From Methylobacter sp. (GTDB lineage: Bacteria > Pseudomonadota > Gammaproteobacteria > Methylococcales > Methylomonadaceae), in NCBI GenBank assembly GCA_030653175.1, contig JAURZV010000098.1, forward strand, positions 1-64,000: DNA of 64,000 nt, in the 5' to 3' direction. The first letter of the stretch is position 1. Each line of letters begins with the position of its first letter. The notes below the pieces were generated by a model that worked only from the letters and a program-made list of their open reading frames with translations, ran no database searches and had not been told where the DNA came from. A program made the translations under genes and the position numbers. Positions 59,140-63,989 of the stretch are shown here, piece by piece.

Positions 59140-59778
59140 TTATTTGATTCTAAAGCTACAGTTACAATCGCCCTTGGCCATACAACTTAACTGCTCGACT
59201 TCCTTGTCCAGCAACGAGGACATAAGCGCCAGATCGAACTCGCAAATCTCATGATGTTTCTGGGCCAGATCATGATAAATACAATTATATGCCTGCATAT
59301 TCGGCCTTTCAGTTTCGGATTCCATACCCACTTTTACTTGAAAACCAAGATCTGTCATGACCATGACCAGCTCATCAACGCGTTCGGTTAAATTTTTTCC
59401 TTCAAATTTGCCACGCAGCTTATCCGCCAGCTTGCCGCCCAGTTTTTGCATATAGGATTTAAAGCGTTCAGAGCCTATTTCCTGCTGCAAATCGCTAAGA
59501 ATTAATTCTGAAAACCAGGCATATTGTTTGGGAAAATAATTGTTGCCTTTGTCGGTTATGACATAAATAGTCACCGGACGCCCGGCTGTTTTATTGAGGG
59601 TGCTTTTCCTGATATAGCCATCCCGCTCAAGAACAACAAAGTGCTGCTGCACACCTGTTCTGGAAATATCCAGCGCTTTAGCCAGCTCATCAACACTCAA
59701 GCCATTCCTGCTTTCCAGCAAATGTTCAAGTATCTGATGTTGGCGGGAACTTATCTTTTGAAGCATTAGCGGATTCAT
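59140..59778 (-). CDS. SufR-like iron-sulfur HTH regulator
   Basis: 212 residues. The N-terminal winged helix-turn-helix (QHQILEHLLESRNGLSVDEL, ALDISRTGVQQHF) resembles the DeoR/SufR type. The C-terminus has a SufR-like cysteine pattern: NC, 12 residues, C in YNCIYHDLAQKHHEICEF, then LSCMAKGDCNC. It therefore probably binds an Fe-S cluster that could sense NO, oxygen or iron status. It is divergent from the globin-reductase pair at 59.9 kb, with a palindrome in the gap, and is likely to control it. It is probably not SufR proper, since no suf genes are near. Confidence 0.8.
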   Translation of the reverse strand: MNPLMLQKISSRQHQILEHLLESRNGLSVDELAKALDISRTGVQQHFVVLERDGYIRKSTLNKTAGRPVTIYVITDKGNNYFPKQYAWFSELILSDLQQEIGSERFKSYMQKLGGKLADKLRGKFEGKNLTERVDELVMVMTDLGFQVKVGMESETERPNMQAYNCIYHDLAQKHHEICEFDLALMSSLLDKEVEQLSCMAKGDCNCSFRIK

Positions 59779-59833
59779 CCTTTCGTCATGACTTTGTTGT
59801 TAAGCGTGCAGTGAAAATAGCTTATTATGACAC

Positions 59834-59857
59834 ATATAACTTGTAAAAGTTTTATAT
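59834..59857. promoter_or_regulatory. Candidate operator of the SufR-like regulator
   Basis: AACTT-gtaa-AAGTT (59838-59851) with further AT-rich symmetry lies in the divergent gap between the SufR-like gene and the first globin gene. It is the clearest palindrome there, but assignment to this regulator is inference. Confidence 0.45.
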
Positions 59858-59946
59858 AGCAAAAAATCGTCTGCTGTTATAAACTCTTCCATGAGCATAT
59901 TTGCTTAAAATAAGAATAATTATCCTACACAATACTGGAGACAATA

Positions 59947-60339
59947 ATGAGCGATTCACAAGAAACAACTTCAAGCCAAACACTCTATGAAAAAATCGGC
60001 GGCGAAGCGGCTGTTAATGCTGCTGTAGATATTTTTTATCGTAAAGTGCTGGCGGATTACCGCATTAACCGTTTTTTCGACAATTCCGACATGGAAAAAC
60101 AAGCCGCCAAACAAAAAGCCTTTTTGACCATGGCATTCGGCGGCCCAAATAATTATAGCGGTCAAGACATGCGTAATGCTCATGCACATCTTGTCAAAAT
60201 GGGCTTAAATGCAAGTCATTTTGATGCCGTAATGGAGCATCTCGGTGCAACGTTAACCGAGTTGAATGTACCGCAAGAACTGATCGCTCAAGCTGCAGCC
60301 ATTGCAGAAAGCACACGCAATGACGTTTTGGGCAAATAA
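59947..60339 (+). CDS. Group I truncated hemoglobin (GlbN-like), copy 1
   Basis: 130 residues. 2-on-2 globin. B10 Tyr is Tyr31 (DIFYRKVL), the E-helix reads KQKAFLTMAFGGP, and the proximal His is His79 in RNAHAHLV by alignment with cyanobacterial GlbN. The C-terminal part (HFDAVMEHLGATLTELNVPQ) is very GlbN-like. Such globins oxidise NO to nitrate or carry oxygen and need a reductase. The gene 13-22 bp downstream encodes one. A ribosome site (ctggagacaata) precedes the ATG. Confidence 0.92.
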   Translation: MSDSQETTSSQTLYEKIGGEAAVNAAVDIFYRKVLADYRINRFFDNSDMEKQAAKQKAFLTMAFGGPNNYSGQDMRNAHAHLVKMGLNASHFDAVMEHLGATLTELNVPQELIAQAAAIAESTRNDVLGK

Positions 60340-60360
60340 CTGAAATACCAGGTGGAGACC

Positions 60361-61338
60361 ATGCGAAGCATAACTATTGGCGAATCAACATTTTCCTGTC
60401 AACCGGATGAGACTGTATTGGAAACCCTGTTAAGGGAAAACGTACAGGTGCCTAACGGTTGTCGTCAAGGTCTTTGCCAAGCCTGCATGATGCGCAGTCT
60501 TGATAACTCTCCACCTGTCTTGGCCCAAGTCGGTCTTAAAGATACCTTGCAAAAGCAGAACTACTTTCTGGCTTGTGTTTGTCATCCTGAACAGGATATG
60601 ACCGTTGCCTTGCCCAACCGGCAAGGCGCTTCGATTGAAGCCGTCGTTATCAAAAAACAGCTGTTGACGCCCGATATTGTACAGTTGGTTTTGGAATACC
60701 AAAGCCCGTTTAATTTTTTCGCCGGTCAGTTTGTTAATTTAAAACGACCCGATGGTTTAACCCGCAGTTATTCGATTGCGAATATCCCGCAGCACGAAAA
60801 CATCCTGGAATTTCATATTCGTCGTTTACCGAACGGTCAATTCAGCAGTTGGGTATATGATGAATTGGAGTTAGGCGCTCAATTAACCATTTCAGAAGCG
60901 CAAGGTTCTTGCCATTATCTGCCCGGACGTGCAGAGCAGCCCTTGATGCTGGTCGGAACCGGCAGCGGCCTGGCGCCGCTTTACGGCATTATTGCCGATG
61001 CTTTGGCGCAAGAGCACTCGGGGCCCATCCACTTGTTTCACGGCAGCCGCGATCTTAACGGCCTGTATTTTATTGATGAAATGCATGAACTTGCCGAGAA
61101 ATTTGATAATTTTCATTACACACCCTGTCTTTCAGGGGAAGATATTGAATCGGATCATATCCAAGGCCGCGCTCACGACATTGCCTTATCATCCACTGAA
61201 ACCTTAAACGGATGGCGCGTTTTCCTGTGCGGTCACCCGGAAATGGTCAATCAGACCAAAAGAATGGCGTTCATGAAAGGCGCGTCTATCGGCGATATTT
61301 ACGCCGACGCGTTTCATGTTATCCAAGCTGAAAAATAA
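60361..61338 (+). CDS. 2Fe-2S/FAD NADH reductase, copy 1
   Basis: 325 residues from the ATG reading MRSITIGESTF; a GTG lies three codons upstream. The plant-type ferredoxin domain has ligands Cys34, Cys39, Cys42 and Cys72. The FAD domain shows RSYSIANIP. The NAD domain shows GTGSGLAPLYGI, and CGHPEMV lies near the end. The domain order is that of MmoC-like oxygenase reductases, but no oxygenase is present. Placed directly after a truncated globin it probably reduces it, making a split version of flavohemoglobin. Confidence 0.9.
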   Translation: MRSITIGESTFSCQPDETVLETLLRENVQVPNGCRQGLCQACMMRSLDNSPPVLAQVGLKDTLQKQNYFLACVCHPEQDMTVALPNRQGASIEAVVIKKQLLTPDIVQLVLEYQSPFNFFAGQFVNLKRPDGLTRSYSIANIPQHENILEFHIRRLPNGQFSSWVYDELELGAQLTISEAQGSCHYLPGRAEQPLMLVGTGSGLAPLYGIIADALAQEHSGPIHLFHGSRDLNGLYFIDEMHELAEKFDNFHYTPCLSGEDIESDHIQGRAHDIALSSTETLNGWRVFLCGHPEMVNQTKRMAFMKGASIGDIYADAFHVIQAEK

Positions 61339-61484
61339 ACCTCACTCAAACTTCCCCTTATGCGCTGCAATTGCTATTCAACGCAATGGCGGCGTATTTC
61401 TATTTGTTTGCCGAGCTTTATGACGAACAGTTAGCAATCACCCGCTTGTTATGAGACTGCAATCGCTTTTTAAGGAGACTGACT
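61339..61484. other. Gap between reductase 1 and MOSC remnant
   Basis: A short plus-strand frame from 61387 reads MAAYFYLFAELYDEQLAITR and stops soon after. It is not recognised. Otherwise nothing is seen; no terminator could be identified for the first globin operon. Confidence 0.35.
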
Positions 61485-61805
61485 TTATATCGCGGCAGCA
61501 ATTCTCTTACGACCTTTCTCATCCAGCGCTTCATTGACTAAAACAGCGCCTTCCCCAAGCTGATGCATAATCTAAGCGCCTTATAATCAAACCGAAGCTG
61601 AAGGCGTGCTATGCCGGGCGTGTTCACCAATGCAATGAACTCGTGTTTTTTACTCCAGGCATCATCCATCGCGCCTGAATTCGCAAAGCGAATACCGAAC
61701 CCTGTCGCCGGCGATTCGCCCTTCATCAAGGACATCTACCACTTCACACGTTTCAGGTGTGAAGCCCTTTACTGGATAACGATATAAGACAACGACTTGA
61801 GGCAT
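61485..61805 (-). pseudogene. MOSC-domain protein remnant
   Basis: Reading across three frames gives MPQVVVLYRYPVKGFTPETC and GRIAGDRV (from 61805), then FGIRFANSGAMDDAWSKKHE and ALVNTPGIARLQLRFD in the next frame, then EGAVLVNEALDEKGRKRIAA and a stop at 61485. This is the N-terminal part of a MOSC-type molybdenum-cofactor-related protein, as remembered from the family pattern. Two frameshifts and loss of the rest show it is dead. It lies between the two globin-reductase pairs. Confidence 0.65.
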
Positions 61806-61954
61806 AAGACAATCTCCATCTGTAAGCATTTGCAGAAACAGCCCAGTATTCTCCAGTGAGAGGTATTACATCAGCTTGGCTTAGAGCGCTTGAAGGCAGT
61901 TCGGTGCCGGACAAGCATCCGATAGAATGACGAAAATCCTGCAATGGACTTTTA
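61806..61954. other. Unassigned spacer after the second reductase gene
   Basis: No credible gene. A minus-strand frame reads through with DFRHSIGCLSGTELPSS but cannot be tied to a family. It may be part of the same decayed region as the MOSC remnant. Confidence 0.3.
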
Positions 61955-62935
61955 TTAGGAAGACTGACTGACATTGAACGCATCGGCATAAATATCCTTC
62001 ATAGAGGCCCCCGCCATAAAGGCTTTCTTCTTGGCCGCTTTAACCATATCCGGATGCCCGCAGAGAAACATGCGCCAGTTCTTGAGATTGGGAATCTGCT
62101 GAAAGGCCACGTCATCGGCCCGTCCTGAGGCAAAGCCGTGGGGCGCCTCCCCGCCGGAAAGGCAGGGTACATAATTGAAATTCGGATATTGCTCAACCAG
62201 ATCGCGCAATTCGCCGGTCAAATAGAGTCCGTTCAGATCGCGGCTGCCGTGAAACAAATGGATAGGGCCGGTGTGGTTCTGACTGAGAGCATCGCGGACG
62301 ATACCGTAGAGAGGCGCAAGCCCGGAGCCTGTGCCGATGAGAACCAAACCCTGCTCGGTATTGCCGGGTATGTAAAAGCAGTCGCCGCCGGGGCCGCGAA
62401 TCTCGACGGTCTCGCCGGGACGCAATTCCTCATGTATCCAGCCGCTTACCCGACCTTGCGGCAGTCGGCGGACATGGAGGTGAAGATGATCATCTTCATG
62501 CGGCACGCTGGCAAGCGAGTAACTGCGACCAAGCGACTGGTCTCGAAAAAGATTTATGAATTGCCCGGCCCTGTAATCGATGGGCGCGTGGCATTCGAGC
62601 TCGACATGCATGATTTCCGAATTGAGTAATTTCAAGCTTTTGACGGTAGCCGGAATAACCGCCTGGACATCATCGTCATTCGGCAGGGCAACTTCGAGGT
62701 CTGCGGTGGGATGGCAAATACAAGCGAGAAAATAGTTTTGAAGCTTCAGAGTATCCTTCAAGCCATTTTGCGAATTTTCAGGAGGCGTGCCTCCAGTGGC
62801 GCGCATCAGACAGGTCTGACAGACCCCGTTGCGACAGGAAAAAGGAATGGGCACACCGCGGCCGGTCAAACAATCCAGAACGGATTGGTTTTCACCCAGT
62901 TCGAAGTTGTCTTTTGCGTAACGAATATTAACCAT
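61955..62935 (-). CDS. 2Fe-2S/FAD NADH reductase, copy 2
   Basis: 326 residues, a paralogue of the protein at 60361-61338 along its whole length. 2Fe-2S ligands are Cys34, Cys39, Cys42 and Cys72, at identical positions. FAD motif RSYSLASVP, NAD motif GTGSGLAPLYGI, and CGHPDMV near the end. It follows the second globin gene after 29 bp and probably reduces it. It is more GC-rich than copy 1, so the two pairs have diverged for a long time or have different histories. Confidence 0.9.
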   Translation of the reverse strand: MVNIRYAKDNFELGENQSVLDCLTGRGVPIPFSCRNGVCQTCLMRATGGTPPENSQNGLKDTLKLQNYFLACICHPTADLEVALPNDDDVQAVIPATVKSLKLLNSEIMHVELECHAPIDYRAGQFINLFRDQSLGRSYSLASVPHEDDHLHLHVRRLPQGRVSGWIHEELRPGETVEIRGPGGDCFYIPGNTEQGLVLIGTGSGLAPLYGIVRDALSQNHTGPIHLFHGSRDLNGLYLTGELRDLVEQYPNFNYVPCLSGGEAPHGFASGRADDVAFQQIPNLKNWRMFLCGHPDMVKAAKKKAFMAGASMKDIYADAFNVSQSS

Positions 62936-62964
62936 GGCGGCACACTTGTTTCAAAGATGGAAAA

Positions 62965-63339
62965 TTAACGGCCCAGCACGTCGTTGCGTGTGCTTTCGGC
63001 GATGGCGGCAACCTGAGCGATCAACTCCTCACTTACGTTCAACTCGCGGAGGGTTGCACCGAGATCTTCTATCACGGCATCGACATGGGAGTCATTCAGG
63101 CCGCGCTCGACCAGATGGGCGTGCCCACGACGCATATCGAGGCCGCTGTAATTATGCGGTCCGCCGAAAGCCATGGTCAGGAATGATTTTTGTTTGGCGG
63201 CCTGAGTCTCCATATCCACGCCTTCGAAAAAGGAGCTGATGCGGTCATCGCTCAACACCTTGCGGTAAAAAATATCAACGGCGGCATTAACAGCGGCTTC
63301 TCCGCCCAATTTCTCGTATAAAGATTGTTGTTGCGACAT
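62965..63339 (-). CDS. Group I truncated hemoglobin (GlbN-like), copy 2
   Basis: 124 residues from the ATG reading MSQQQSLYEKLGG, preceded by ggagaaaaat. A frame extending to 63384 would run into the NsrR operator and is not the start. B10 Tyr25 and proximal His73 (RRGHAHLV) match copy 1, as do FLTMAFGGP and AAIAESTRNDVLG. The promoter region carries two NsrR-type sites and the nsrR gene is divergent, so expression is very likely induced by NO. This supports NO dioxygenation over simple oxygen transport. Confidence 0.92.
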   Translation of the reverse strand: MSQQQSLYEKLGGEAAVNAAVDIFYRKVLSDDRISSFFEGVDMETQAAKQKSFLTMAFGGPHNYSGLDMRRGHAHLVERGLNDSHVDAVIEDLGATLRELNVSEELIAQVAAIAESTRNDVLGR

Positions 63340-63360
63340 ATTTTTCTCCAAATAATTAAA

Positions 63361-63381
63361 AAGGTGTTTAAAATACATCTT
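63361..63381. promoter_or_regulatory. Secondary NsrR-type site
   Basis: AAGGTGTTTA-AAATACATCTT: the right half agrees with the NsrR half-site AAATGCATCTT in 10 of 11 bases, the left half is weaker. It lies 21 bp upstream of the copy-2 globin start codon, where binding would block transcription. Confidence 0.5.
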
Positions 63382-63423
63382 CAATAGCCCTAACTCTCAG
63401 GGCCTTTGCCAAGGCGCAACAAT

Positions 63424-63446
63424 AAGATGCATTTAGGATGCATCTT
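63424..63446. promoter_or_regulatory. NsrR operator
   Basis: AAGATGCATTT-a-GGATGCATCTT is an almost perfect match to the 11-1-11 NsrR consensus, and the symmetry extends three bases further on each side. It lies in the divergent gap between the copy-2 globin gene and nsrR, so it could regulate both. Confidence 0.8.
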
Positions 63447-63533
63447 ATTGTGCGATTATTAAACCGTCAAGACCTATCTTTTAATTTTCAAGATATAAGC
63501 TAAAAGACAGGCGACTTTGAAGGAGTATTCAAT

Positions 63534-63989
63534 ATGCAACTTACGCAGTTCACGGATCTTTCACTGCGCCTGCTGATTTATCTTGCCCGCCTGCCTGAAC
63601 CGGGTATGGCGACAATTCAAGAGATCGCCGAGTATCATCAAATTTCCCGCAACCATCTGGTGAAAGTGGCGAACAGCCTGGCCAATCAGGGATTTATTAT
63701 GACGACCCGGGGCAAGGGCGGCGGCATCCAGTTGGCCCGACCCGCGTATACAATAGGTGTGGGCGAAGTGGTGCGTCGGACTGAACTTAACATGAATCTG
63801 GTAGAGTGCTTCGATGCCCCGACCAATCAGTGCCGTCTGATCCGCAACTGCTTCCTCAAGGCTACTTTATATGAAGCGCAACGTGCATTTATGACTGTGC
63901 TGGACAAATACACGTTAGCTGATGCGGCCGGTTTCGGCTCCAACGTCGGCCTGTCGGCGTTGTCTGGAGATAAACCGCAAACCATCTGA
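63534..63989 (+). CDS. nsrR: NO-sensing Rrf2 regulator NsrR
   Basis: 151 residues. Rrf2-type winged helix (TIQEIAEYHQISRNHLVKVA) and wing GKGGGIQLARP. Cluster ligands Cys92, Cys100 and Cys106 (VECFDAPTNQC, then RLIRNC) are present, and Asp8 (QFTDLS), the fourth ligand known from the Streptomyces protein, is also there. VLDKYTLADA near the end is typical of NsrR. NO destroys the cluster and lifts repression. Ribosome site gaaggag precedes the ATG. It is divergent from the second globin-reductase pair. Confidence 0.93.
   Translation: MQLTQFTDLSLRLLIYLARLPEPGMATIQEIAEYHQISRNHLVKVANSLANQGFIMTTRGKGGGIQLARPAYTIGVGEVVRRTELNMNLVECFDAPTNQCRLIRNCFLKATLYEAQRAFMTVLDKYTLADAAGFGSNVGLSALSGDKPQTI

Follow-up and report, generated by a model that had tools for sequence, protein, structure and literature searches.

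Two convergent truncated haemoglobin-reductase pairs beside NsrR and a SufR-like regulator in Methylobacter: candidate two-protein nitric oxide dioxygenases

A 64,000-nucleotide window of a Methylobacter sp. genome carries, at 59140-63989, two convergent gene pairs, each encoding a truncated haemoglobin and a 2Fe-2S/FAD reductase that together probably destroy toxic nitric oxide (NO). We favor, with moderate confidence, the reading of each pair as a two-protein NO dioxygenase, with pair B under NsrR, pair A under a SufR-type regulator, and the two pairs being old lineages that were joined at this locus.

Organization of the locus

The initial annotation had described two globin-reductase pairs facing each other, each made up of a GlbN-type globin and a 2Fe-2S/FAD reductase, and two different Fe-S-type regulators beside them. 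All six genes were verified, the Pfam domains agree for both pairs, and each regulator has its own conserved candidate operator. Pair A comprises the SufR-like regulator, GlbN-A, and RedA; pair B comprises NsrR, GlbN-B, and RedB.

SufR-like winged-helix regulator: 59140-59778, minus strand, 212 aa, with the triad C166-x12-C179-x27-C207 and an invariant C199.
Candidate SufR-like operator: 59834-59856, no strand assigned, inverted repeat ATATAACTT-GTAA-AAGTTTTATA upstream of GlbN-A.
GlbN-A, group 1 truncated haemoglobin: 59947-60339, plus strand, 130 aa, Bac_globin at 77 bits.
RedA, 2Fe-2S/FAD/NAD(P)H reductase: 60361-61338, plus strand, 325 aa, Fer2 + FAD_binding_6 + NAD_binding_1; an alternative GTG start lies at 60352.
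MOSC-domain gene remnants: 61439-61805, minus strand, N-terminal half only, frames broken.
RedB, 2Fe-2S/FAD/NAD(P)H reductase: 61955-62935, minus strand, 326 aa.
GlbN-B, group 1 truncated haemoglobin: 62965-63339, minus strand, 124 aa.
Predicted NsrR operator: 63424-63446, no strand assigned, AAGATGCATTTAGGATGCATCTT, a palindrome that is perfect at the conserved positions.
Predicted sigma-70-type promoter of GlbN-B: 63442-63470, minus strand, TTGACG-17-TAAGAT, by consensus match only.
NsrR, Rrf2 family: 63534-63989, plus strand, 151 aa.

Globins and reductases

GlbN-A and GlbN-B are 76% identical. Both contain the Bac_globin domain and have the HisF8, TyrB10, and PheCD1 of group 1 truncated haemoglobins. 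The haem pocket residues TyrB10/GlnE7/LysE10/GlnE11/HisF8 are invariant in 95 of 95 globins, and LysE10 is known as a haem ligand of Chlamydomonas THB1, which shares the group 1 fold with the globins described here; the latter differ in being bacterial and encoded with a dedicated reductase. A divergence between the active sites of GlbN-A and GlbN-B was rejected as the tested haem-pocket positions are identical, with E15 as the sole exception. Other activities of group 1 truncated haemoglobins, namely O2 binding, nitrite reduction, or peroxidase activity, speak against a two-protein NO dioxygenase.

RedA and RedB share 50% identity. In both, Pfam finds Fer2, FAD_binding_6, and NAD_binding_1, which bears out the earlier remark that the reductase has a 2Fe-2S domain absent from the flavohaemoglobin Hmp. 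The cluster motif C-x4-C-x2-C-x29-C occurs in all 93 reductases, RedA included. Architecture (Fer2-FAD-NAD) and sequence similarity relate them to the MmoC/BenC-type oxygenase reductases; they differ from these in scoring below the equivalog cut-offs and in having a globin as the neighbor, and neither gene adjoins oxygenase components. An oxygenase as the reductase partner was rejected because the loci examined hold no oxygenase gene and a globin is the neighbor in most of them.

Conservation of the pairing had been put forward as a check in the initial annotation, and it extends across the Gammaproteobacteria. Order-wide, the reductase lies directly downstream of the globin in 103 of 113 scorable globin rows, with a median gap of 36 bp, and this linkage is far above chance. 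At the class level, where nearly all loci come from families other than that of the window, a globin is directly upstream of the reductase in 25 of 28 loci; by eye, the three loci without a globin show no obvious oxygenase among their open reading frames. The globin and its dedicated reductase are thus arranged as one operon, and gaps of 20-30 bp suggest that they are likely carried on a single transcript.

Regulators and candidate operators

NsrR: The protein matches Pfam Rrf2 with 118 bits, and its cluster-ligand cysteines C92, C100, and C106 are invariant in 32 of 32 relatives. The best NCBIfam family is NsrR with 135.7 bits, below the equivalog cut-off of 182. Using the recognition pattern gATGyAT-N5-ATrCATc, we found a perfect palindrome, GATGCAT-N5-ATGCATC, at 63426-63444, which is the sole site within one mismatch in the 4.0 Mb genome (the backwards-read control gave 0). 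The predicted operator overlaps the predicted -10 element of the GlbN-B promoter, which comes from a consensus scan that returned 2 promoters vs 0.7 expected. In the family of the window, the site score (maximum 14) is 11-14 in 17 NsrR-linked loci and 7-10 in 27 SufR-linked loci, and it is 9 for the sole Methylobacter GlbN-B without NsrR. In Methylobacter, as in this family, the NsrR-type site accompanies nsrR and is absent without it. The NsrR-type sites upstream of GlbN-B in the other family (that of the relatives of module B, see below) are mostly weak, which counts against the two-protein NO dioxygenase.

SufR-like regulator: Pfam assigns HTH and MetOD1 to this protein. The best NCBIfam family is SufR_cyano with 76.6 bits, below the curated cut-off of 178.8, and the protein is the only match of this model in the genome. 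That both regulators stay below their NCBIfam equivalog cut-offs is a further point against the proposed function. C166, C179, and C207 are present in 30 of 30 sequences, and their x12/x27 spacing is the same as that of C203/C216/C244 in M. tuberculosis SufR (Rv1460), where the triad is required for function. As in cyanobacterial SufR and Rv1460, a winged helix is combined with a C-terminal Cys-x12-Cys-x27-Cys, and the gene is divergent from its target operon. Here, however, the gene adjoins the globin operon and not suf genes; the same holds in the sampled order, as judged from gene neighborhoods. A SufR-type regulator has, by these sequence features, apparently been rewired onto a globin.

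Wherever a Methylobacter module A has the SufR-like regulator, the core AACTT-N4-AAGTT of the candidate operator, which we take to be unlike the known SufR sites, is found with 0-1 mismatch; the four module A loci without the regulator show 3 mismatches. As regulator and operator were lost together, control by the SufR-type protein is a sharp and cheap prediction. No further copy within 3 mismatches was found elsewhere in the genome, and outside Methylobacter, matches to the module A repeat are mostly within chance.

Origin of the two modules

Tree analysis places RedA with SufR-like and RedB with NsrR on separate branches, and a single change of regulator maps onto the reductase tree. Module A, like its left flank, is native to the family. 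Copies of another family enclose module B in the tree (AU p=0.013); it probably came from that other Methylococcales family and was placed beside the native module A. The initial annotation had spoken of the pairs as duplicated. Given the 50% identity of the reductases, their separate branches, and the nesting of B in another family, a local inverted duplication was rejected, and the tree instead points to two old, separate lineages that were brought together.

The 616-bp gap between the pairs contains the remnants of the MOSC-domain gene. Relatives, among them M. tundripaludum SV96, have an intact MOSC open reading frame (263 aa) that follows RedB in the same orientation, and the domain was confirmed in this intact gene. 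In these relatives, the MOSC protein encoded next to RedB may be a further electron acceptor, a possibility that tells against a two-protein NO dioxygenase.

Discussion

The analysis shows the gene anatomy, the linkage, the phylogeny, and the joint occurrence of regulator, operator, and reductase; electron transfer, NO chemistry, signals, and a direction of regulation we infer as follows. Each pair would be a split counterpart of flavohaemoglobin, in which electrons from NAD(P)H would reach the haem of the globin via the FAD and the 2Fe-2S cluster of the reductase. In its ferrous state, the LysE10-type globin would bind O2 and convert NO to nitrate, and the ferric haem would be re-reduced by the reductase. 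Pair B is likely repressed by NsrR on the palindrome over the promoter and should be released once NO attacks the Fe-S cluster of NsrR. Control of pair A would lie with the SufR-type Fe-S regulator, redirected from the suf genes that it usually serves and acting via its own inverted repeat; pair A would then respond to the state of Fe-S clusters, to redox state, or to iron, and possibly to NO as well.

Like Hmp with NsrR, the pairs combine a haem globin with an FAD/NAD(P)H reductase, and NsrR control is shared. Hmp, however, is one chain with a 3/3 globin fused to the reductase and lacks the 2Fe-2S domain, whereas here two separate genes encode two proteins, and the globin is a truncated 2/2 globin. 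An Hmp elsewhere in the genome as the NO remover was rejected: the family model matches reductase domains only, with 89 bits at best vs a cut-off of 432. The earlier interpretation of the locus as split Hmp chemistry is strengthened in this part by the Hmp-free genome. The genome also has hcp with an adjacent hcr-like reductase gene; Hcp/Hcr shields a Methylobacter strain against NO even under aerobic conditions, and this weighs against the proposed role of the pairs.

The closest known case is the glbN-lpg2536 operon of Legionella pneumophila, predicted in 2005 to be a split Hmp under NsrR (Rodionov et al. 2005, PMC1274295) and also treated in Gardner 2012 (PMC3820574). Pair B is, therefore, of an already known kind. 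GlbN is there followed by a ferredoxin reductase gene, with an upstream NsrR site and no hmp, and a split NO dioxygenase was likewise proposed, lpg2536 being matched to RedA/RedB by description. Legionella differs in having a single module and no SufR-type module. In the literature searched (mostly papers outside subscription, main texts only), we found nothing on methanotroph globin-reductase operons beyond the papers cited here and no description of a SufR-type globin module; this module and the two-module assembly look new.

The globins might instead store or deliver O2 for methane monooxygenase or oxidases in hypoxia, with the reductases keeping the haem ferrous and NO chemistry being secondary. 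We consider this unlikely because NsrR and the candidate operator tie pair B to NO, and a linked reductase is a usual feature of turnover enzymes. The pocket, moreover, is polar at B10, E7, and E11, and such pockets are usually slow to release O2. The idea is nevertheless favored by studies of methanotrophs, in which truncated haemoglobins were suggested to feed O2 to methane monooxygenase and the group II/III genes of Methylocella and Methylacidiphilum go up in suboxia (PMC11102522); in Methyloprofundus INp10, a group I gene is among the top 10 transcripts, but the authors themselves propose an NO response (PMC8788690).

It is less probable still that the reductase chiefly serves the MOSC protein, which would be a YcbX/mARC-type molybdenum enzyme reducing N-hydroxylated compounds, with the globin as a second client and the operon handling the hydroxylamine and nitrite stress of ammonia co-oxidation. 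YcbX/mARC proteins do take electrons from Fe-S/flavin donors, and many Methylobacter, along with some relatives, have the intact gene after RedB. However, most module A loci lack it, as do the loci of the other family and the class-level loci, and it is broken in this genome, whereas globin and reductase stay linked throughout. Least of all do we expect the globins to be low-O2 nitrite reductases or peroxidases that make or remove reactive nitrogen or oxygen species instead of dioxygenating NO. The LysE10 globin THB1 reduces nitrite slowly, and peroxidase activity has been reported for a Roseobacter truncated haemoglobin; the measured nitrite rates of THB1-like globins, tens per M per s, are slow for a dedicated reductase, and control by NsrR predicts the removal of NO, not its production.

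Returning to the two-protein NO dioxygenase, we see an even chance that, in Methylococcales, a SufR-type Fe-S regulator became detached from Fe-S assembly genes and was committed to an operon for a truncated-haemoglobin NO dioxygenase, which it controls through an operator of its own. With both modules, a cell would then remove NO under two separate Fe-S-based triggers (NO via NsrR, Fe-S/redox via the SufR-type regulator), the second module having been transferred and docked beside the native one. Methanotrophs produce NO while denitrifying at low oxygen and while oxidizing ammonia, and NO and nitrite influence their methane consumption. Since many Methylococcales genomes have the globin-reductase module, and the cultured M. 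tundripaludum SV96 has both, the question of which protein reduces a bacterial truncated haemoglobin can be put to a direct test with a natural partner.

Gene anatomy of the two pairs

The window lies on contig C65 of a 4.0-Mb genome, where the positions of all six genes in the initial annotation were confirmed. Module A comprises a SufR-like regulator, GlbN-A and RedA, and module B comprises NsrR, GlbN-B (GlbB) and RedB. GlbN-A and GlbN-B (76% identity) are both group 1 truncated haemoglobins. RedA and RedB (50% identity) are both Fer2-FAD-NAD proteins by domain search, each with the motif C-x4-C-x2-C-x29-C, and RedB shares 95% identity with its counterpart in Methylobacter tundripaludum SV96; the host is a Methylobacter. 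Two further genes belong to this neighbourhood:

61439-61805, minus strand: broken remnants of a MOSC-domain gene, in the 616-bp gap between both reductases
64077-64901 of C65 (1078-1902 of locus L004), minus strand: Red3, a third FAD/NAD reductase without the 2Fe-2S domain, past nsrR and outside the window

Many relatives have the MOSC gene intact downstream of RedB, with 263-aa copies in M. tundripaludum SV96 and others. RedB may also have the MOSC protein as a second client; the MOSC gene is dispensable to the globin-reductase linkage. Red3 lies within the operon NsrR-GlbB-RedB-Red3 in three relatives (L121, L123, L126). At locus L119, Red3 stands straight after GlbB and RedB is absent, which suggests that one reductase type is able to replace the other.

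Conservation of the linkage

Strong reductase matches were found in 216 of the 301 genomes of the order, and globin matches in 248. Among the matches listed, the reductase is directly 3' of the globin on the same strand in 103 of 113 globin rows (median gap 36 bp), which are a sample taken from genomes also having a listed reductase row. Class-wide, 64 of 369 genomes gave a reductase match, and the globin is immediately 5' of the reductase in 25 of the 28 loci fetched, 27 of which belong to families outside the order. Hence, the linkage is conserved elsewhere, and the objection that it might not be kept fails. The window's genome also encodes a third truncated haemoglobin of another group (L005 2915-3310, minus strand, contig C108), which scores 122 bits against Bac_globin and has no reductase gene close by.

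Regulators and candidate operators

A perfect NsrR palindrome (63426-63444; consensus from PMC1274295) overlaps the predicted -10 of GlbN-B and is the only site in the genome within one mismatch. In the window's family, the palindrome scores 11-14 (maximum 14) at NsrR-linked loci and 7-10 at SufR-linked ones, and a single Methylobacter GlbN-B lacking nsrR reaches 9/14. The three cysteines of NsrR are kept in 32/32 relatives.

The candidate operator of module A, AACTT-N4-AAGTT, sits 5' of GlbN-A, and its extended repeat occurs once in the genome at ≤3 mismatches. Every Methylobacter locus retaining the SufR-like gene has 0-1 mismatch. Three mismatches are seen at four module A loci where this gene is lost or missing from the fetched stretch (L044, L050, L051 at a contig end, L054). 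Beyond Methylobacter, the motif is mostly within chance expectation. A conserved TATAAA-like box lies just 3' of the repeat; scanning for promoters gave no consensus match at this position. One Methylobacter genome has a second, divergent A-type pair (L052 5466-6961, minus strand) with no adjacent SufR-like gene and 1 mismatch to the motif.

The SufR-like protein is the genome's sole match to the SufR model, scoring below the cut-off. C166, C179 and C207 are retained in 30/30 relatives, and their x12/x27 spacing is identical to the spacing between C203, C216 and C244 in Mycobacterium tuberculosis SufR (Rv1460), three residues shown to be needed for its function. C199 is a fourth invariant cysteine, and the non-invariant C205 corresponds to Rv1460 C242, which is not needed.

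Origin of the two modules

The initial annotation took the pairs for a duplication. A local duplication is rejected, as the modules represent separate regulator-reductase lineages. Order-wide, the SufR-like gene pairs with RedA and NsrR with RedB, with the sole exception of the divergent locus L149, whose reductase is RedA by BLAST and falls among NsrR-type sequences on the tree. The regulator label needs one change on the 93-row reductase tree (SufR-like clade support 100), and two are enough on the globin tree, built from few columns.

Module A is native because the left-flank glycosyltransferase gene also adjoins it in most A-only Methylobacter genomes; Sua5 and carboxylase genes are likewise beside it in one. 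RedB of the window's family is nested within that of a second family, whose forced monophyly was rejected (p-AU 0.013; of moderate weight, the test being chosen after a quick tree). This argues that module B was probably acquired and then docked beside module A.

Among 23 Methylobacter genomes, six, including the window's, carry complete convergent pairs, and three more carry module B with a decayed module A. At L044, L050 and L051, RedA and the SufR-like gene are lost or truncated, and GlbN-A persists beside an intact module B.

Haem pocket and proposed enzyme

Globin positions were mapped through alignment to Synechocystis GlbN and named by helix numbering. TyrB10, GlnE7, LysE10, GlnE11, PheCD1 and HisF8 are present in 95/95 globins. 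LysE10 is the sixth haem ligand of Chlamydomonas THB1, THB2 and THB4 (PMC7082302).

Hmp is absent from the window's genome. Hcp, with an adjoining hcr-like reductase gene, is encoded on C107 (46528-49561). Hcp/Hcr is an NO reductase pair and, in Methylobacter, the established defence against NO (PMC6977074); the text of that paper leaves the globins unmentioned. Module B agrees in kind with the Legionella glbN-lpg2536 prediction of 2005. No description of module A, in which a SufR-type regulator would control a globin operon, came up in the literature available.

Anatomy, linkage, co-occurrence and phylogeny are observed; for the enzyme itself, we propose that electrons would pass from NAD(P)H through FAD and 2Fe-2S to haem, where NO and O2 would be converted to nitrate. 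At the pocket positions tested, A and B are alike but for a minority Phe at E15; if the two modules share out tasks, they therefore probably do so through regulation or the reductase. Module B would be derepressed by NO, and module A may respond to Fe-S, redox or iron status, with the SufR-like protein as repressor or activator.
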